64,000 nt of DNA from Glaciozyma antarctica PI12 (lineage: Eukaryota > Basidiomycota > Microbotryomycetes > Kriegeriales > Camptobasidiaceae): the NCBI GenBank assembly GCA_002917775.1, contig KZ627150.1:1-64000 (forward strand). The letters run 5' to 3'. A program made the position numbers and the translations under genes. Below, in pieces: positions 5,801-62,880 of this stretch. Each line of letters opens with the position of its first letter. The stretch's first letter is position 1. The notes under the pieces are model-generated. The model was given only the letters and a program-made list of their open reading frames with translations, was not told where the DNA came from and did no database searches.

Positions 5801-6025
5801 GAGGGAGATGGAGGGAGCGAGGGAAGCGGGTCCGAGGAGTATTGGCGTTCTCATGTTGTATCCTGCAAGTTTTTCTCGTTTGCGGTACTCTCCTGGCTTC
5901 TCTCTGTTCTACTCTGGATTCTACAATCCTCCAGCTATGAATCCGACTCGCCGTCGTCGTCGAGACGCCTCACCTTCGAAATCGCCTCGCGCGTTTCGCT
6001 TGCTCTCCGCCAACTCCCTCTCGCG

Positions 6026-42742: not shown

Positions 42743-45700
42743 TCAACGCCGTCCAGCCCTCTTCTCCTCCTCCGCATACGTCGCTCTCAGCGCATGGATA
42801 TGCGCCACGATCTCGTTCGCCGCCTTGGCATTGTCGGCCTCGAAGTCGTACCTTTTCTCGACGCGATCCTTCTGCACGAGAAGCTTGAACGTTGCCGGCG
42901 CCCGCTTGCTGACGCGGCATTCGCGGACGTTGGAGATGTGGTAGCTCGAGGTACGGCCGCCGACGAACATGCCTTTGTTGTCCGAGGGCATGAAGTGGAT
43001 GCTGCGAAAAGTGGATCAGGAAGGACTCTCCGGAGGTGAGTGAGAGGACGTACTAGTCTCCGTCGATGGCGATGGTCTTCGCATGGCGACCGAGAGGCAT
43101 AGGAAGCTTCCTCTGGACGTTGTAGCGCTGGTACGTCGACGTGAGATCCGTCGCGGACTGGTACTTGGGTTGCGGCGGTTCCGAAAGACGCTTGAAGATG
43201 GAAGCTGAGTGTGAGAATCATTAGCGACGTCCGCAGAGCAAAGGAGCAAACGCACCACTCGGGTTTGTGTTCTGAATGGCGGGCTTCTGCTTCCCTCCTC
43301 GAAGGCTGGCGACGAGGTCCCGCCTGACGAGAACGAGGTTGTGACGATCTCCCAAGCTGTCGACGGTGCGGTCGAGGGGAACAATAATCTCCCTCCCGTT
43401 GTGCTGAACCATCAACGCCCAGTCTTTCGGGTTCTCGAGGCCTCGCTTCTTGCAGATGTGATCTGAAAAGTGCGACTCGTCAGCTCGTTCGCTTCGCAAA
43501 GCCCCGGTAGAGGGGCACGTACCGAGCACGTCCGACATGTACATGTCGTTCGGGACGTTGATCGTCGTGTTGATCGCCTCGACTCCAGGCGCCGGTGGAA
43601 GTCGTACGCGCAAGAGGACCGGAATTGCCAAAGCCGACGAGACGCCCATCGTTCCCGGCCTAAACGATCCTCCAGGTGCAATGGGAGGAGGACCGAGCAT
43701 CATGCTGGGCGCGGGCGCTGGAATCGGTGGAGGAGGAGGAGGGGCGAGGGTGTCGGCGACGATGAGGTTGCGCTTGGGAGCGGCGAGGACGCGTGACGGA
43801 CGCCGTTGGATCTGAGCTTGCTTCGCTTCGTTGTCCTTGACTGTGGGTAGCAAGGGGTGAGCGAGGAAGACGAGTGGTAGAGAGGACGACGACGGACCTT
43901 GAGGAGGAGTCGCCTTGACGATCGCGAACTCGTCGAAGGAGAACGCCGAGATGGCTCGAGTGCGATCGAGAGCTGCGCGTACACCTTCGTCAGCACCATT
44001 CTTCGCCGCCCGGAGAGAAACGACGAACCAGGAAAGTCTCCGTCGACCTCTCCGTCGTCCTCGACGATCCTCAAATTCCACTTGGTCGTCTCGTCCGTCT
44101 CCCCCGCCGTGCCGACCTCCAACTTGGGCTCCCTCCCTTCCTCCCAATACGCCCACAGCCCCGCACCAATAACCAACAACGACGCTGAGATCCTTCTTGA
44201 CGCCAACCTTGAGCTTCTTCGCAGGCGTCTTGGAGTGCGGAAAGTACAGCGAAAGCGTGAGCGCGTCTGTTGCGCGAGAGGCGAGGGCGGCGTAGAGCGT
44301 CGAGAAGGGGTTCGAGGCGGACGGAGAGTCGGATTTGGCGGAAAGGAGGGCAGTGAGTGCGGAGCGCTGAGGGAGGGGCGGACGGACGAAGGAGGAGGTG
44401 CCGCGCGAGGGGAAGGTGAGGGAGTTATGGTGGCTGCGTGCGGGAGTGGGCGGCAAGGAGAGTTTGGCGGGTTTGGGAAGAGAGGCGGGGGCGGCGGGGG
44501 GAACGGCGGCGCGGACGGGTGAAGGACTGGTCGTGGTGGAGGCGCTGAGGAGAAGGAGGCTCGGCGCAGAGACCTTCCGCCGAAGCCGCTTCTCCGACTC
44601 GTCCTCGAGCGTCCCGTCGGTGCTTCTCCCTCCTACGATCGCCGTATCGCGACCGCTCGCGAGACCCAGCGGCACGGCGAGGGTGTTCGGATCCGTATTC
44701 GACCTCGGACGGCCCGTCTCCTGCGTGTTGACCAGAGTTGCAGGATGTCGAGCTGCGGCTGCTGAGAAGGGCGGGGCGTCCTCCTCGTTCGCCGGCTCGG
44801 AGATGGGAACGAGCAGTCGTCCGCTGATGTTGACCCTGCGCCGTTCCCTCGTCGCGCGGTAGCTGCGACTGGGAACCAGGAGAGGAGGGGGAGGAGCTTC
44901 GAGAATATAATGTTCCTCGTCCTCCTCGATCCTCTTAATCTGCTTGTCCGACGCGGGCACGGCGAGCGACGATGAATCGCTGTCGCTCCGTTCTCGGCCC
45001 AGAATGACGCCCTCGCTCGTCCCGTTCATGCGCGAGACGCCAAAGAGAGAGATCCCTGAGCTCGCGACCGATGCGAACTGCCCTGCGGCGTTGTCGAAGG
45101 ACGCCTCGTTCGAATCCGTGTCAGATGATAGCGATCGAGAGGAGGCGAGAGAGGACGCGAGAACAACCTCGACAGGGGTAGATGCGGCGGATTCGAGTGC
45201 TGGAGAGGCGAGGGTAGAGAGGCAATGGAAAATGGAGATGTTGAGTTCCGCGTTCTCGGAGATGTTGGAAAGGGAGCGTGGGGGATAGTCGAGAGGGGAT
45301 TCGTCGATAGATGGGGATATTGGCGGGTTGTCGTAGAGTCGATAGTTCTCGTCTTGAGCTGCAGCTTCGGCGGGGGATAGCTCGAGATCCCCGAATCCTG
45401 GAGCGAGTCGTTGAGCGAGCTGCATGCGTGTGTCGGAAGGTGAGTCGGGGGTCCCTGGCGAGGATGGGCTTTCTGGGCGGATGCGGCCTCCTGGCGAATC
45501 TTGAGGGGTTTGGACGGGGGAGAGAACGATGACGGGAGGAAGGATTAGGACGTTCGACCGGTCAGCGACGCGGCGGCGGTGAATGGAGGTCTCGAGGGAG
45601 TTGCGACGGCTGAGGAGGGGCCGTCAGCTGAATCCTCATGATCCTTCGCAGCCAGAACTCACTTTAGATGATCCGTACTAGTACCAGTTTCCTGTACCAC

Positions 45701-46210
45701 CTGTGGCAGTCCATCTCCCAACCCGCTTTCGTCCCCCGTATCCGACAGCGCTGCCCCTCTCCCCTTCCAGCTCCTCGGGCGCCCCCCAACCCTCATACCA
45801 GCATACCAGAACCCCTCCCCCCTTGGCCACGATAGTCTGCGAGTACCGCAATCCGCCTCCCGGTGCTCCAGGCCTTCTCCGTCCTCCCGTCGTGCTCGCC
45901 TCTGCGCGACCATGCACCAGTCCCAGCGGCGGGCTCGATCTCCCGCTGCTGAGCTCCGGCCACTTTTCCTCGTCTGCGAGTCCTGCTAGCTGTACATAGG
46001 GCGAGTTGAGAGTCGGAGAGGAGAGGTCGAATGCGATGAGGTTGTATGGGCCGGTGCCGGGAAGGGAGGACTGGGCGGTGTGGTTTGGGAGGACGTGGCG
46101 GATGTAATTGAGGCGGAGCGACTGCAAGAGAAAGCTGGAACAGGTCGTTAGCTGTGTTACCTCCTGTGTCCAACGAGCGCAGCTCACTCTTTGTCCGCTA
46201 GAAGGGACAT
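42743..46210 (-). CDS. AVO1: SIN1/AVO1, TORC2 subunit
   Basis: Exon 1 MSLLADK splices to DFLLQSLRLNYIRHVLPNH, the Sin1 N-terminus, then GLADEEKWPELSSGRSSP and GGGLRYSQTIVAKGGG. A long disordered exon follows. The CRIM domain reads NPFSTLYAALASRATDALTL, LKVGVKKD, GAGLWAYWEEGREPKLEV and TRAISAFSFDEFAIVKA. A Ras-binding-like domain (INTTINVPNDMYMSDVL, CKKRGLENPKDWALMVQHNG) and a PH domain (SSYHISNVRECRVSKRAP, KRYDFEADNAKAANEIVAHI) complete the protein; TGA at 42743-42745. Known role: substrate-recruiting scaffold of TORC2. Within CRIM, the frame changes by one base at about 44192 with no fitting intron. A second change near 45800 can be explained by a 106-nt intron. Confidence 0.85.
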
Positions 46211-46476
46211 GGCTCCATCGACCTCGAGGGTGGATCGAGCTCGCGAGAGCTACGGCGAACGCGCCCTGTTACGCCGAGAGCTGTGGCTGTGACTGGGTAC
46301 GGAGAGGCGTTATGGGAGCTCTTGAGAGAGGTGTGCTGAGGTCGGCGTGCGGTTGAGAGAGGTGGGGGAGTCGAAGAGACGAAGCAGTCGCGAGTTGCTC
46401 TCCTGCCGCACGCTTGCGATCTGCTCTTGTTCTACCTCTGCTCGAATGGTACAGCCGATTCCTGTCCAGTTTCTTG
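46211..46476. promoter_or_regulatory. Divergent promoter region, SIN1 and USP-like gene
   Basis: The gap between divergent genes is about 266 bp. No recognisable binding site. The 5' end of the plus-strand gene is uncertain, so the true extent may be larger. Confidence 0.35.
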
Positions 46477-48851
46477 ATGCACGCTGACGAGCGTGTGGGT
46501 CCAACCAGTCGTCGGAACGAGCCACGCCTGCTCAAGGAGAAGGTGCGCCGCGGGCTGGACGTGTAGCATGTACGTTGCCCCCCCTTGCAAAAAATTCTGA
46601 GCTCACCGAACGGCGTTCCAAGACCAGGATTACCGCCCCGAGGAGCCAGAGTTTATCGGGGACGAGGTCCTCGGCTACCTCGAGAAGGACTGGATTCTCG
46701 AATGGGGCCAGCAGGTCGCCGAGAGTATCACCAGCCCCACGTTCGAGTGTGCAGGACACCTGTGGTAAGTCTTATCCCATCATACACTGCAACGCTTGCT
46801 CACATTCCCTCGCAGGTCAGTCACACTGCTTCCTCATAGCGCGCACTCCCCCGGCCACGTCGCGCTCGTCCTGAATCACGCTAGCCCCGAGCGGTTTACG
46901 AAGCCTGGCGAGCATATCTGCGTGTCCCTATCACTCGTCATGACGAAGCCTGGTGCCTTTCCGCCATCGGTGGCAGACCGGGCTGTCATCGAAAGTGCGT
47001 CCCGTCGTCTCTGAATCGTTCATCCTGAGGCTTATTCACTTCTGCAGAGGGCTTTGTCGCTTCTCAGCAGAACGTTCGATGTTCTCCTTTTCCCACTTCG
47101 GCGAGCGCAGTCTCCTTCTTCAATCGTTCGGCTTTCAGGCTGCGTTCACCGCGGCGGTAATGGTCTTCGACGACGAGACGGGTTACCTCTTCGTTGATTC
47201 AGCAAGGTGAGATTTCCGTTTGAGTCTCGCGGAGCTTGGCTAAACTGATGTCCTGCAGGCTCAACCCGAGAAAAGAGTTCGGCTGCGTGATTTTATGGAT
47301 GAGCGGAGACTGGCAGATGAGCGCTGTTCTACAGTCGCTCTTTCACATCAAGTCTGTTAGAAAGGTGAGACGTCTTGCGGCTCAGCGCTACACACGAGCT
47401 GACCTCCCTTCGCAGGCCATCTACACGATCCCGACGGCTGAGGCAGGCTCGGACGTCCGCGCTGCCGCACTCGCGCTTCAGAACCTTTTCTACTGTCTCG
47501 AAGTCTCAACTGCTCCTGTCGGTGCGTGTACCCTGCTTGTTCCCGGCGAGCCTTGCACTGACAGCTCGACAGGACTTGGCGCGATACAAGAATGTTTCGC
47601 AAAGATCGGTCTCGCAAGTCCTTACTGCGACGCCGTTCAAGGGAGTTCCGTCGACCCAGGACCAGCTCCGGATCAGGCTGATCTGCAAGCCTTCCTGCTG
47701 AGTCTCCACGACGATACCTTGAGTCCATGATTCGAATTATGTGGCGCTCGGACTGACGCGATCTCGCCCAGACTCCTGCACTCGGACCTATGCTCGAATC
47801 GCAGCTCGTTTCGTACGTCGAGACGCTCGATGGTGAGATGTTCTGGGCGTCGCCAGTGCCTGAACTGCATTCGCGTAAGTATCGCGCTTCGCAGCAGGTG
47901 GCGAGAAGCTGACGCCCTCCCATCTCCCAGACTTTGACCTCTTCCTCGAAGGCGAGACTCTAAGAGACTCTCTCATCGCGTACTTCCTTGACCCCGAGGT
48001 CCTCACGGGCGAAGAGCGGTACGGGCACGAAGGCGCGCAGATTGACGCCATCAGCGGGAACGGCGTCCTCTCCTTTGCCCCCATTGTCACCTTCATTCTC
48101 GAGCGCCACACCTTCGACAAGCTCAAGAAGAAAGTCTGCCAAGTGCGTGCTCCCCTTCGCTCTCCTATTCGCTCGCTAATCCACCGCAGGACAACTCTCG
48201 CTTCGAATTCCCCTTCTCCCTCTCCCTTGCTCCCTACCTGCATCGCTCCTCGCCCCAACCTTCCTCCACCCTCTCCTACCGCCTTCACACGATCCACATG
48301 CGCGCAGGAACCCTCAAGCACGGCCGATATTTCTGCATCATCAAGCCCTCGCCCGATTCGCCGTGGCTGCTGTTTCGGGACAAGAAGATCGTGCCGATGA
48401 GCGAGGGAGCGGTACGGTATATGGCGTTTGGGAGGGAGGTGGGGAAGAAGGAGGTGGCGGAGCATGCGGTCGGGTTGGTGTATGTGCGCGAGGGGGAGGA
48501 CGAGGTCGAGGTGGGGAGGGAGGATGTGCCGGAGCATGTTCGTGAGTCGCTTCTGTTGCTGCGCGTTGGAGTGGCGCTAATGAGCTTGCAGGTATTTACT
48601 GTGAGAGCGATGCTTATGGTCGGAAAGCGCCGACTGCAGAGGTCGAAGCGGTCGCGGCGGATAAGGCGAACGAGTCAGCGCGTCTCCAGCCTGAAGGTGC
48701 GTCGCTCCGAACCCGCTTTTTCGTCTCGCCTGACTCTCTTTTTGAAGCAGGAACGGACGCAGGAGAGCAGGAGGCCCTGGGCTGGGGGTCGCTGCTGGTG
48801 CCAGCACTGGCGGTCTCGGCAGTCATCCTTTGGAGAATGCTGCGAAGATAG
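46477..48851 (+). CDS. MATH-USP protein of the Ubp15/USP7 family, catalytic residues lost, C-terminal membrane anchor
   Basis: A divergent MATH domain (RPEEPEFIGDEVLGYLEKDW, ECAGHLWSVTLLPHSAHSPG, FGFQAAFTAAVMVFDDETGY) is followed by a USP fold. The Cys-box reads FGCVILWMSGDWQMSAVLQS where family members have NQGATCYMNSLLQ: the catalytic Cys is Trp. LQNLFYCLEVSTAPV matches the next USP segment, and FEFPFSLSLAPYL precedes the His box AGTLKHGRYFCIIKP, where the usual GHY is GRY. FRDKK stands for FDDD. The protein ends WGSLLVPALAVSAVILWRML-RR, a tail-anchor-like hydrophobic segment; TAG at 48849-48851. The middle of the catalytic domain (about 47570-47770) is eroded. The start is unresolved; ATG 46477 is a placeholder. 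Confidence 0.75.
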
Positions 48852-49056
48852 CCCGGTCGCCAAGACGTTTTCGCCCTGCGTCTGAGCCCTGCCACTCCAA
48901 AACCTTGAAAGAAGAGAGATGGAGCCAAGGCCGCGGAGGTGGAAGCTCGAACTTTCAAATTTCTGTGGGGTGAACCTCTTCTCGGCCCTCTCCCCGCGGA
49001 TTTGAGATTCTCCTTCAACTCCGCCCACCACCAACTCAGGACAGAGAGGAGAGACG

Positions 49057-52000
49057 ATGGCACAAGCACAGCCACGACCACGCTCTCGCTCTCGCTCCCA
49101 ATCCCAGTCAGCCACCGGCGGCGCCTTCCACCCAGACGAGGAACCGCCGACCAAGTCCGACTACGACTTCTGCAACGCGTTTTGGACGAACCACAACTCT
49201 GTCCTCCGCGCCGACCCTGGAGCGTTTGGTGGAGAACTTGTCAAGGAGGGCTATGAGAACTTGATGGGACGGATGAAGATGGGGACCAAGACGATTGAGG
49301 ACTTGAGGACCGTGTTTCGCGAGAGGTGAGTCGCGTCGTGCGTTGTTGTGGTGCGCTGCGCTTGGGTTGGGGCGCGGTGGAGTACCAGGGAGCAACTGAG
49401 TTGCTGGCTTGGTTCTTCCTGGATGGATTGAGGCGGCGCTTGACGAGGGTGGCGAAAGGAGTACCTCGCCTGCGTGCACAGCTCGGCGCGCAGGGAGGCG
49501 CAGGCGGGCAGGATCAGAGTGGCTCAGCTTCTCGCGCGCGGAGGAAGCTGCTCTGTAGGCCTCGTCGGCGCCAGCCTTCTGCTGAGGGCCGGCTGGGCTG
49601 GCGCGCTCAGGGGCAGGGACCCCTCGTCGCCCCGCTCCGGGCTGTCCTCCTTGCCACGCACGAGGCGGACGCCTGGTGGAGCTTGGACGGTGTCGGTTCC
49701 TTAGATTCCTGATTGCCAGAACGTCTACTCAGCTCCACAGAGGCCGGGCGGACAGTGAGCTGGAGAATCGGCGTCGCGGGAGCTCTTCCCTTTCCCTCGA
49801 AGGCGAAGACGAACAGCTTGCCGGCAAAGTTATTCTTAGCCCAGACGCCCACTCTTCAAGCCGGCCGTCTTAACCCCGAAGCGGCTCTTTACTGACTGCC
49901 GCTCCTTTTGCAGGTCAGCAATGGAGGACGAGCACGCGAAGAAGCTCTCCAAGCTCTCCAAGCACCCCATCGGCGTCGGCGAGACTGGGTACGCTCGAGC
50001 TCTTCTCCTTCCAGCCGCCGCTAACCCCGCGAACAGTCACATGGACCGCGCCATCACTCAGCTCAAGAGCGAGCTCGACAGCGCTTCGCAGGCGCACGGC
50101 GTTCTCGCAGCCTTCCTTCGCACGCAAGATGCCCAGCTAGCCGAATTCAACACGAAGCGTGAGGCGCAGCGGAAGGCAGTACGTATCTATCGGCAGTCGT
50201 GCGGGAGGGAGGAAGCTGACGAGTGGTTGCAGCAACAAGCGGCGGTGGAGAAGGCCTGGAAGAACAAGGCGAGCCAGGAGGCGTACGTTATCAAGGTTAG
50301 CTTAGAGTCTTTGGAGGGAGGACCGAAGCTGATGCGTCGGGTGCAGGCGAAGACGAAGTACGAAGCGGACGCCATCGCGATCAACACGATGAACGCGCAG
50401 TCGGCTCTCTCGCAAGGAAAGGATCTGGACAGGGTGCGTTCACCTGAGAGCGACGAGGGAGCGGACGCTGATTCGCTTTCGTGCAGCTGAGCGCGAAGAT
50501 GGACAAGACCCGGCAGACCGTGCAGGTTAACCAGCGGGACTACGAGAACTACGTCAAGGTGCTCAAGGAGACTACGGCGTGAGTTCGCACGATTGACACG
50601 CACGCATGGGAGGAGAGCTGATGCGTCAGAGCAGGTCCTGGAACATGATGTGGCGGTCGTACTGCGATGTGAGTCGTCGTTGCTGCGCGAGGAGTGCTGT
50701 TGTTGATGATCTATCTACGGCTGGCAGCTTTGTCAAGACCAGGAGGAGGAACGGCTCGATTTCCTCAAGGCGCGACTCTGGGACTGGACGAATGCTGTCT
50801 CGACCGTCGCCATGGCCGAGGACGAGGTGCGTACTGCCCTTCGCGCTGCCTATGACTCCCATCTGACTCTTCGCAGGCTGCTGAACGAACTCGTACTGCT
50901 CTCGAGCAGTGCGTCCCCGAGACCGACTTGCAAGTCTTCGTCAGCCAACTAGGAACAGGCCACGACATCCCTGGTTCGTCTCCGTATCGGTCTTCCTCGA
51001 ACCCCCTACTCACACGACGCTGCGCAGATCCTCCCAACTTCATCGACGCTCGAATGCGCGGGGTCGAGACGAAGCCGACGTTCAAGACAGCGGCCTTCGC
51101 GCGCTCCTCGACACGCGGAGTCAAGCACAACCCCTCCCCGGTCAAATCCATCACCTCTGCCTTCCAATCCTCGCCCGCACCTTCCCCCACACTGGAGAGA
51201 CCTCTGAGTGGTCCTCCTCCCGTCGCAGCTTCCCCCGCCGTCGCCGCCTCCTCGCACCCCTCCTTCGCCGCTGGCCCGCCCTCCCCCACGAAGATCCCGA
51301 CGATTGCGTCGCCTCTCGACACTACCCTCCCCACTCAGTCCGTCCACACCATCTCCCAGCAAGCGACTCGCCCTCCTCTCGAACCCTCACCTTCCTCCTC
51401 GCGATTCACCATCTCCCCCTCCGCCAACCCTCTCGCACGCTCAGGCGGAGATCGATCGCCCACTTCGTCCTCCTCGAAGCCAGGCCACGTCTCCGCCTCG
51501 GCGTTCCAGCGACGCGGGCCCTCCAGCGCGACGAGCGACGTCGAAGCTCCTGCGCCACCGCGCTTCGAGCTCCCGCCCTCAGCAGCGGCGCCCACTCCTA
51601 CTGCACCGGCGGGAGACGAGGACGAGGACGAGGATCCCCTGATGAGAGCTTTGAACAAGCTCCAGAGCTCGACGTCGACGCAGCCGTTGCGCAAGCAGAG
51701 GAGCTCGGCGGGGCCGATGGCCGGAGCGGTGGGCTTGCCAGGGATGGCGCCCCAGCAGCAGCAGCAGCAGCAGTCTCGACCGCCTCCTACGGATCGGAAC
51801 AGCACTGGACCTCCTCGGACGTCTCAACAACCTCAACAACCTCAACAACCTCAACAACCTCAGCAGCAACAGCAGCAGCAGCAGCAGCGCATGTCGCACC
51901 GCCAGTCCCAGCAGAGCCTCGGTCCTTCAGCCGGAGACGCCTACGGACGCCAACCTTCCTCCCGCCCTACCTCCCCCGGCCCCTCCGCCTCCCTCATGCA

Positions 52001-53382
52001 GCAGCCTTCGCAGCAAAGCATCCCCACCGTCGTAGGTTCGTACGGCCAGTCCTTCCCCGGCGAGCGCGCGTCGTCTCGACAAAGCTCGAACCGCTCGCCG
52101 TCGAGACAGGACTCGGGAGCGTCGAATCGCTACTCGAACGGAGCGAACCTCGTTTCGCCTGGGCCGGACGAGTACCCGCGTTCGGTGTCGCCCAAGCCTT
52201 CGCCTTTCGCGGGCGTAGGAGCGAGGGGAGCGTCGCCTGGACCTCAGCAGTTCGAGCTCCCCGCCGGCGTGCGCGCACCCTCGCCCTCGCCCTCGCAGTA
52301 CAGGTCGACGTCGCCTCAGCCGCCCTCGAACTACGGGGGATACCCTCAGCAACAGCAGCAACAGCGGATGTCGCAGTACGGCCAACCTTCCCCCTCTCAG
52401 CCCGACCTCGCTCGCCCCGTCAGCCCTCTCGCCTTCGCACCTCCGCACGACCAGAACTCGTCGAACGGATACCGCGCCGACGGACGAACGGGATTGCAGT
52501 ACGGACGCGCGTCGCCGGTTCCTCAAGGAGCGCCTCAGGGGTACCCGCAGGCGCCGTATCAGCAGCCTGGGTACCAGAGCTCGGCGTCACAGCAGTTCCA
52601 GCAGGCGCCTCAGGGCTACCAGCAGCCTTCGCCCGCGTCGTTCCACCAGCCTTCTCCGTCTCCCGCCTCGGCCTACCAGCCCTCCCCCGCCTACTCCTAC
52701 CAACAGCCCTCCCCCGCCGCGCCGTATCAGCCCGCACCGACTCAGCAGCAGCAATACAACCAGTCCCCCGCCTCGGCCTACCAGCAGCAGCATAACCCCT
52801 CGCAGCAAGCCAGCGTCGTTCGTACCGCGAGCGCCAACTCATCGGCGTTCGGAAGCTACGCCGCTCAGAGTGGTCAGCAGGGATACGCGGCTCAGCGAGC
52901 GCCTTCCCCTGCTCCTGCGCCGGTGGCGTCGACGTCGAGGCCACCGCCGACGGGGCAGTATATGGAGGATGGAAAGCCGATCTTGTTCTACGGTGCGTTT
53001 TCGTTGCTCGTCGTTGGGAGGGAAAGCTGATGTCGTGCGCAGTGAATGCTATCTACGATTATCAGGCGTCCGGAGCAGAGGAGTTCTCGTTCAGTCAGGG
53101 AGACGTGATTGCCGTTACGGAGACGGATGTGAGTATTTCTTTCTCGGAGCGAGCGAGGTGGTGGCTGATCATGTGCGTGCAGCCTGATGGGTGGTGGCGA
53201 GGAGGTATGGTCGGCGCCAAAGGCGGAGAGCGCATCTTCCCCTCCAAGTACGTTCTCGTTCTCCCCAACCTTTCCCAGCTTTGCTAATTCTTCGTCCCTT
53301 GCAGCTTCACCGAAGTGCGTCGCTCACTCTCTGCCTCGCGACGTCTGAGCTGACGGTCCTTCTCTCGCAGCTTTTGCCTTGA
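49057..53382 (+). CDS. F-BAR and SH3 protein of the Cdc15/Imp2/Hof1 (PCH) family
   Basis: MAQAQPRPRSRSRSQSQSAT leads into an F-BAR module: YDFCNAFWTNHNSVLRADPG, ELVKEGYENLMGRMKMGTKT, AMEDEHAKKLSKLSKHPIG, MDRAITQLKSELDSASQAHG, LSAKMDKTRQTVQVNQRDYE and EERLDFLKARLWDWTNAVST. A very long disordered region with Gln/Pro/Ser repeats follows (about 51,000-52,950). The C-terminal SH3 domain spans four exons: VNAIYDYQASGAEEFSFSQG, DVIAVTETDPDGWWRGGMVG and GGERIFPSNFTELLP, with TGA at 53380-53382. Known family role: links the plasma membrane to the contractile ring and septation machinery. Intron 1 (49326-49913) is 588 nt; the others are about 50-70. ATG 49057. Confidence 0.9.
51754..51890. repeat. CAG/CAA microsatellite coding Gln and Gln-Gln-Pro repeats
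   Basis: A CAG run (about 51754-51774) is followed by tandem CAACCTCAA units (51829-51860) and a second CAG/CAA run to about 51888. All are in the coding frame of the F-BAR/SH3 gene and encode poly-Gln and QQP repeats. It is likely to vary in length between strains. Confidence 0.85.
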
Positions 53383-61301: not shown

Positions 61302-62880
61302 ATGGCCGCTACTCCAGCCCAGCTCATCCCTCAGCTCGCTACGCTCCTGGGACTCGACGGCGCTTCCGTCAAGGAGCAGGTGTGGCCGTACCTCTCCAGC
61401 ATGAAGACCGCTCAAGAAGTAGCTCCGTACCTCTCAGTACGTTCCTTCCCACCCTGCTACGCTCTCTGGAAGCGAAGCACGACGAACGCATCAAGCTAAC
61501 GCTACTCTCCCTCCCGCAGACTCTCCTCGGCACCGCACCTCCTCAACAAGCCTTCATCCGCACCTACCTCTCGGCACGCTTCCCCTCCGCTCCACCTCCC
61601 CCCGCCCCCTCAACAACCTGGGCCAAACCCCCTCCCTCCCGCGCGCCCGCTCCCTCGACCTCCCGCTCGACCATCTCCGCTCGAGAAGCCGCTGCGTTCG
61701 AACGCGAGTTCGGCGGGGGAGGGAAAGTGTATGTTAAGAACCGTGAAGAGGAGTGGAACGCTGGGAAGAAGGGGAGATCGGGGACGAGGACGCCTGCTAC
61801 GCCTCCGCCTGGTGCGGCGCCTGGGAATGGGGTGCCGGTGCGGCAGGCTATGCCGACTACGCTGGCGAGGGAGATGCAGAAGGAGTTGAAGAAGGTGGTG
61901 GTGGTGGAGGGAGAGGTGGAGTTATCGGAGGGTACATCGAAGAAGATTGTCGAGGTCGACCGTGCGTTGCGAGGGTTCGTCGCAGGGAAGGCTTCGACTC
62001 GTTCCTGCTTTTGCCAAGGTGCGTGTTTCCTATCCAGCTTCAGGAGTACCTCGCTGACGTCTCAGAGAATCCAGCGCGCCAACATCCTCTCTCTCCCTAC
62101 ACCCCTCTATGCCCTCTCTGCGGCCTAGTCCTCTGCGCCCTCAACTCCCCCATCTCACCCTGTCCTTCCTGCTCCCACTCTTCCCTCCTTTCTACAACCT
62201 CCATCGCTTCCCACATCGCCTCCCTCCAAACGACTCGCGAAGCGATCGTCGCACGGGAGAAGCGTCGATTCGCCGAGGAGAAGGATGCGGAGGAGAGGGA
62301 GAGAGCTGCGATCAGGTTCCCGACGCTTGGAGCGGATGGGAGGCCCGCTGGAGCAGCGGCGGTGGCGAGGGCGTACAGCAATATGGCGGGAGCGGGACCG
62401 GCGTTGGAGGAGCGGATCGACCGGGCGTACGAGGAGGGGAAGAGCGTGAATGGGAAACCGTTTGGGAAGAGGGTGGAGGGGAAGGTGTTGAGGTTGGATC
62501 AGAAGACGGGGAAAGTGAGGGTGCAGACGAAGGTCGTTAAGAAGGTCGTCAAGAAGGAGGGGAAGAACGTGGTAGTCGAGGTGGTGGAGGTGGAGGATGG
62601 GGAGGAGGTTTGGAGGGACGAGCAGGATGATGGGTTGAGCGAGGGGGAGACGAAGGAGATGATGGCGAAGCACGCGGACCGACTCTTCTACAACGTCACG
62701 CTCGAGGAACCGCCGCTGTGGGTCGAGGAGGTCGTGCTGGCGGAGGAGGAGGTCGCGGTCGATGAGGCGGTCGTCGAGGTCCCGAAGGGAGTTCCGGGAG
62801 CTGCGCCGGTCGTCGCTGGAGCGGGAGGAAGGAAGAAGGGGAGGACGAGGGTCACGAAGGGAGGGGATGTCGTCGTTTGA
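61302..62880 (+). CDS. TRIP4/ASC-1-type C2HC5 zinc-finger protein (Rqt4-like)
   Basis: MAATPAQLIPQLATLLGLDG and PYLSSMKTAQEVAPYLS form a small N-terminal helical domain. After a Pro/Ser region comes the family zinc finger, CFCQ-ARQHPLSPYTPLCPLCG then LVLCALNSPISPCPSCS, spanning an in-phase intron (donor GTGCGT near 62019). A charged helix (REAIVAREKRRFAEEKDAEE) and a basic region (VRVQTKVVKKVVKKEGKN) follow; TGA at 62878-62880. Known orthologues: human TRIP4 in the ASCC complex and yeast Rqt4 in the ribosome-quality-control trigger complex. It would help split collided ribosomes. Length (about 470) fits. The ASCH domain of animal TRIP4 is not seen, as in fungi. Confidence 0.88.

Follow-up and report, generated by a model that had tools for sequence, protein, structure and literature searches.

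The gene at positions 46477-48851 (+) of the analysed window, a stretch of 64 kb corresponding to the first 64 kb of contig 5 (genome of 20 Mb in 18 contigs), raises the question of what becomes of a deubiquitinase of the Ubp15/USP7 type when its catalytic residues are replaced and its C-terminus is hydrophobic. An earlier note on this DNA had proposed a tail-anchored, catalytically dead member of the family and, as the alternative, a duplicate in decay.

The gene can be joined from 12 exons (Table 1), the borders of which were placed by eye according to homology, GT-AG sites and reading frame. Its introns are mostly 47-56 bases long, with 85 bases in the first and 55 or 73 in the third, and ten of the 11 donors have a G at position +5, the exception being intron 7. 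Codon preferences trained on 4877 codons from ten other long ORFs of the window revealed that the homology frame is open and the best of the three plus-strand frames in all 12 exons, with a small margin in exons 1 and 12. A frame of the reverse strand reached a tie in exon 7 and a higher score in exon 12.

Table 1. Exons and the irregular intron 7 of the MATH-USP gene (positions in the window).
Feature	Positions	Strand	Evidence and remarks
Exon 1	46477..46542	+	ATG at 46477, start uncertain; open frame; GTGCGC donor; weak codon preference (0.06)
Exon 2, MATH domain begins	46628..46764	+	Pfam, codon preference; following intron at the Ubp15 column and phase
Exon 3, MATH domain	46816..46994	+	Pfam, codon preference
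Exon 4, MATH end and linker	47050..47206	+	Acceptor 47049 (GAG) or 47067 (CAG); codon preference
Exon 5, former Cys box	47259..47364	+	SGDWQMSAVLQSLF opposite NQGATCYMNSLLQSLF of Ubp15 (alignment)
Exon 6, USP domain	47416..47521	+	Codon preference, Ubp15 alignment
Exon 7, USP domain	47573..47722	+	QADLQAFLLSLHDDTL opposite QHDVQEFNRVLCDKLE; TGA at 47728 in frame if intron 7 is unspliced
Intron 7, 49 bases	47723..47771	+	Donor GTCCAT; junction off frame by one base
Exon 8, USP domain	47772..47874	+	Codon preference, Ubp15 alignment
Exon 9, USP domain	47931..48142	+	Codon preference, Ubp15 alignment
Exon 10, USP domain with KHGRYF (former His box) and FRDKK (former Asp box)	48190..48541	+	PF00443, E 3.3e-9 at 48190-48414
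Exon 11, linker	48592..48696	+	Codon preference 0.25; Ubp15 alignment fades here
Exon 12, hydrophobic ALGWGSLLVPALAVSAVIL, then WRMLRR and stop	48751..48851	+	Mean Kyte-Doolittle 2.02; codon preference 0.02, lowest of the 12 exons

The divergent upstream neighbour is an ORF of 800 codons (43224-45623, -) with the CRIM domain of Sin1 (PF16978, E 2.6e-13). The downstream neighbour (49057-51000, +) shows by eye a pattern which we take to be that of an F-BAR-type protein; Pfam matched nothing in its first exon. Elsewhere in the window, we noted an ORF of 724 codons with poly-Gln runs and a high content of Gln, Pro and Ser (50856-53030, +) and an ORF with a C2HC5 zinc finger (61747-62877, +; PF06221, E 6.4e-11).

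The MATH-USP layout in many exons described by the earlier note was recovered. When the two halves of the predicted protein were compared to Pfam, MATH_2 was matched with E 2.4e-4 (21.8 bits, below the curated cut-off of 32) and UCH in the C-terminal half with E 2.1e-11 (44.3 bits, cut-off 23.9), while the N-terminal half reached only E 0.14 against UCH. The best PDB sequence match was the catalytic domain of USP7 (E 1.3e-20, model residues 197-512), and USP7 chains occupied the 26 best of the 40 PDB rows listed (E 1.3e-20 to 3.5e-19). In the protein, a MATH domain thus precedes a USP domain that resembles USP7 most, and these similarities establish its descent from Ubp15/USP7 at the level of sequence. 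Structure prediction, which the note had proposed for the USP fold, was applied to exon 10. The AlphaFold model of this exon (48190-48543; 33 related proteins in the alignment) is of modest quality (pLDDT 67.4, pTM 0.41). In a Foldseek search against the PDB its best match was USP7 (E 9e-5, query TM 0.57), and among the 50 matches at E <= 0.001 those listed were USP7 chains and three USP34 chains. We consider this mild support only, because the underlying alignment consists of Ubp15 homologs.

A second, intact Ubp15, the existence of which the note had raised as a question, is present in the same genome. In a profile search of the genome PF12436 was found on contig 7 only (421039-422030, four matches), and the gene there (a model of 1066 residues with 19 GT-AG introns) keeps NQGATCYMN, HGGHYF and FDDD and has a +5 G in all 19 modelled donors. 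It is also the one other place in the genome matched by the window protein (one of ten matches, the other nine being the own exons). Its closest relatives, the first 19 of at least 120 listed, are Ubp15-type proteins with 75-82% identity; presumably they are Microbotryomycete proteins, the class being taken in part from names. In a tree of 38 rows (35 of the 120 listed homologs, the protein P0001 mentioned below, the own Ubp15 and the window protein), Ubp15 of contig 7 is sister to a Pseudohyphozyma bogoriensis protein (96/82). At its N-terminus FAAKHLSDMG and MGTDDFKVFTW lie in different frames, and their counterparts are continuous in the six relatives inspected. A 7-base tandem duplicate is located at this offset (minus strand, approximately at 5905-5935 in the locus 418500-426500 of contig 7). 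The offset is apparently an assembly fault, a strain variant or the sign of a downstream start. In any case, an apparent frame break exists also in Ubp15, a gene that is expected to work.

Aligned to this Ubp15, the window protein has Trp opposite the catalytic Cys, Arg opposite the His and Arg opposite the first Asp of FDDD, which is replaced by FRDK; the triad Cys-His-Asp thus reads W, R, R, as the earlier note had seen, whereby the placement of the Trp depends on an alignment with a one-residue gap adjacent to it. The Asn ahead of the Cys box, to which we ascribe an oxyanion role, is replaced by Met. In the MATH domain, D102 and W103 of Ubp15, presumably part of the peptide groove, lie opposite M and F (QDWGF opposite SMFSF, exon 4). 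Neither PF12436 nor PF14533 of the UBL region was detected in the Pfam scan of the window protein. Another exon model with a normal Cys or His box, which according to the note would have refuted a protein dead by design, was sought in the six unspliced frames of 46000-49200 and rejected: the motif scan, which is blind to motifs split by introns, gave neither a Cys box nor a His box nor FDDD, the two FDD matches being located elsewhere. In summary, sequence comparison establishes the loss of the three catalytic boxes, the MATH Asp-Trp pair and the UBL region. With its homology and the loss of the catalytic residues, the putatively produced protein would be a pseudo-deubiquitinase.

The window protein is 31% identical to the own Ubp15 over 513 aligned residues. 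In a larger alignment, its eight nearest rows (33%) were other fungal Ubp15s, the own Ubp15 not being among them, and in the tree its branch is saturated (length 10), with a position as sister of the own Ubp15 neither rejected (p-AU 0.22) nor demonstrated. For seven of the nine aligned Ubp15 introns, the window gene has an intron in the same column and phase, among them those after exons 8, 9 and 10; the eighth has the same phase but is three columns off, and the ninth, intron 7, is four columns off and out of frame. Therefore, the window gene is a duplicate made at the DNA level, and a retrocopy was rejected on the same ground. Read in the homology frame, its exons contain no stop codon. The exon model itself avoids stops, yet most introns coincide with those of Ubp15. 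When 503 Ubp15 codons were allowed to drift neutrally to 33% identity, 13.9 stops arose on average, and at least six in each of 100 runs. The gene was therefore maintained as a coding gene for long after the duplication, and a pseudogene decaying since then is incompatible with this result.

The residues that were kept are in line with this. We considered the columns of Ubp15 residues 1-540 at which at least 95% of 120 homologs share the residue, leaving out 31 of 284 that were gapped. The residue class is kept at 93 of 112 hydrophobic positions (53 identical), so that much of the hydrophobic core is preserved, at 52 of 89 polar positions (26 identical) and at 32 of 52 S/T/G/P positions (25 identical). 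A kept core with a changed polar surface agrees with a protein that still folds but is released from catalysis, and the changed polar positions speak against an unchanged ubiquitin binding.

Behind the USP domain follow approximately 70 residues, closing with a hydrophobic 19-mer (mean Kyte-Doolittle value 2.02) and the six residues WRMLRR. Such an end is rare: of the 692 ORFs in the window that finish with a stop and are at least 60 residues long, only two, the gene's own ORF counted, end as hydrophobically. Tail-anchored proteins have a single transmembrane segment close to the C-terminus, and the tail anchor proposed by the earlier note, a hydrophobic segment with Arg-Arg before the stop, is plausible by its hydrophobicity. 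The compartment cues conflict. According to PMC5450235, ER tail anchors of yeast have a GRAVY above 1.75, and in mammals positively charged tails favour peroxisomes or mitochondria. Thus, the hydrophobicity near 2.0 points to the ER and the basic end to mitochondria or peroxisomes. A peroxisomal anchor would be attractive given the link of Ubp15 to peroxisomal Pex1/Pex6 proposed in PMC5762779, which is no evidence for such an anchor. The weakest codon preference of all exons (0.02) and the higher-scoring reverse frame of exon 12, which bears the tail, count against a membrane protein.

The remark of the note that part of the catalytic core is hard to read turned out to be justified at two places, the acceptor of intron 3 and the junction at intron 7. 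Intron 3 is in frame only with the GAG acceptor at 47049 or the CAG acceptor at 47067, the latter at the cost of six codons of the MATH end. In intron 7, a CTGAC resembling a branch site and a CAG acceptor are present, but the donor lacks the G at +5. Across exons 7 and 8, 37 GT-AG or GC-AG introns with a length of 40-200 bases would restore the frame; all were rejected as alternative splices, since 35 of them cut into or remove the conserved QADLQAFLL and the other two contain stops. The offset at intron 7 may be due to recent decay, an assembly error or odd splicing. As a control, genome searches for CCT (38 matches) and HSP70 (27 matches) were inspected by eye, and the compared gaps between adjacent matches were intron-sized except at two unclear places, near 1071735 on contig 10 and near 179905 on contig 9. 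Frame breaks thus seem to be uncommon in this assembly, so that a plain assembly error becomes somewhat less likely for intron 7.

No ortholog was found when a model of 592 residues was searched against 5.8 billion proteins: one match among 7995 scored candidates was obtained, P0001 with 23% identity and E 2.6e-8. The ORF of exon 10 gave no match among 25 candidates. These searches reach proteins with a length 0.55 to 1.75 times that of the query and miss longer, fused or distant ones. The database does contain the 19 Microbotryomycete Ubp15 entries. The searches would probably have picked up a close ortholog of normal length, but not a distant, longer or unannotated one.

Altogether, our best reading is a lineage-restricted, membrane-anchored pseudo-deubiquitinase, possibly dying. 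That an old DNA-level duplicate of a fungal Ubp15/USP7 gene became a non-catalytic membrane protein has, in our view, about an even chance. The irregular donor and offset of intron 7, the search without an ortholog and the many altered polar positions weigh against it. Of the decay considered by the earlier note, decay since birth is not tenable with no stops at 31% identity, while a duplicate decaying now is conceivable because intron 7 looks broken. The pseudo-enzyme would then have been maintained for long and have lost the donor and the frame of intron 7 only lately, a scenario that is quite possible without being the probable one. It would account for the non-consensus donor and the one-base offset at a single junction, for the awkward site at intron 3 and for the failure of the protein search to find an ortholog. 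Further, 30 of 100 simulated runs were still free of stops after 5% amino-acid change, and therefore a recent death would leave few traces. On the other hand, the exons flanking intron 7 are open and show coding preference, and the own Ubp15 has a comparable frame offset with its 7-base tandem unit at the N-terminus, so a single break in the window gene need not be a real loss.

With so weak a donor, intron 7 is likely to be retained, and in this case translation would end at 47730, resulting in a short soluble protein of 302 residues with the MATH domain and the first part of the USP domain. This reading is unlikely, since a long-standing truncation would not explain why coding preference, consensus splice sites and three Ubp15 intron positions persist in exons 8-12. 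Highly improbable is a peptidase still active via other residues. It is true that USP53/54 were once called inactive and later reported to be active (PMC12037411), likewise USP39/USP52 (PMC10919355), but the window protein retains neither the Cys, the His and the Asp nor the Asn ahead of the Cys box.

The window gene resembles fungal Ubp15 and human USP7 in MATH-USP order and sequence, and shares most introns with Ubp15 of the same genome; in contrast to them, its product lacks the triad, the MATH DW and the PF12436 region, and has a hydrophobic C-terminus in addition. USP39 and USP52/PAN2 are, to our knowledge, not of the USP7 type and have no membrane tail. Like the window protein, they have a USP domain without the full triad, and their inactivity is disputed; approximately 13% of the DUBs are considered inactive, and some of these are activators or scaffolds (PMC10919355). 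Fission yeast has two USP7-type enzymes, Ubp15 and Ubp5, and the membrane protein Ftp105 holds Ubp5 at the Golgi (PMC2935449). There, too, a second USP7-type gene exists beside Ubp15 and its product is found at a membrane compartment, as proposed for the window protein; but Ubp5 is active and recruited by Ftp105, whereas the window protein has a putative tail of its own and no triad. USP19-ER, a USP with a C-terminal transmembrane tail anchor, has in common with the window protein the C-terminal tail (putative in the latter) and differs in being active and belonging to another USP subfamily (PMC9842591). Pseudo-DUBs and membrane-anchored USPs are thus known separately, and the window gene would join both in the USP7 family. 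Among the open-licence papers listed, we found no such combination in this family, which is weak evidence of absence.

Regarding the function of the proposed membrane-anchored pseudo-deubiquitinase, the tail would be embedded in the membrane of an organelle while the MATH-USP part faces the cytosol, and this part could act without catalysis, as a scaffold or as a competitor for partners of Ubp15. We tentatively suggest, as a rather doubtful extension, a lineage-specific pseudo-enzyme of the USP7 family which has traded catalysis, the substrate groove and the activating UBLs for its own membrane anchor. Fixed to the surface of an organelle, it could offer the partners of Ubp15 a non-catalytic platform or compete for them without catalysis. 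Should this be real, nature would have separated the non-catalytic role of Ubp15 from its catalysis; if dying, the gene would be an example of a pseudo-enzyme paralogue long kept and then lost.
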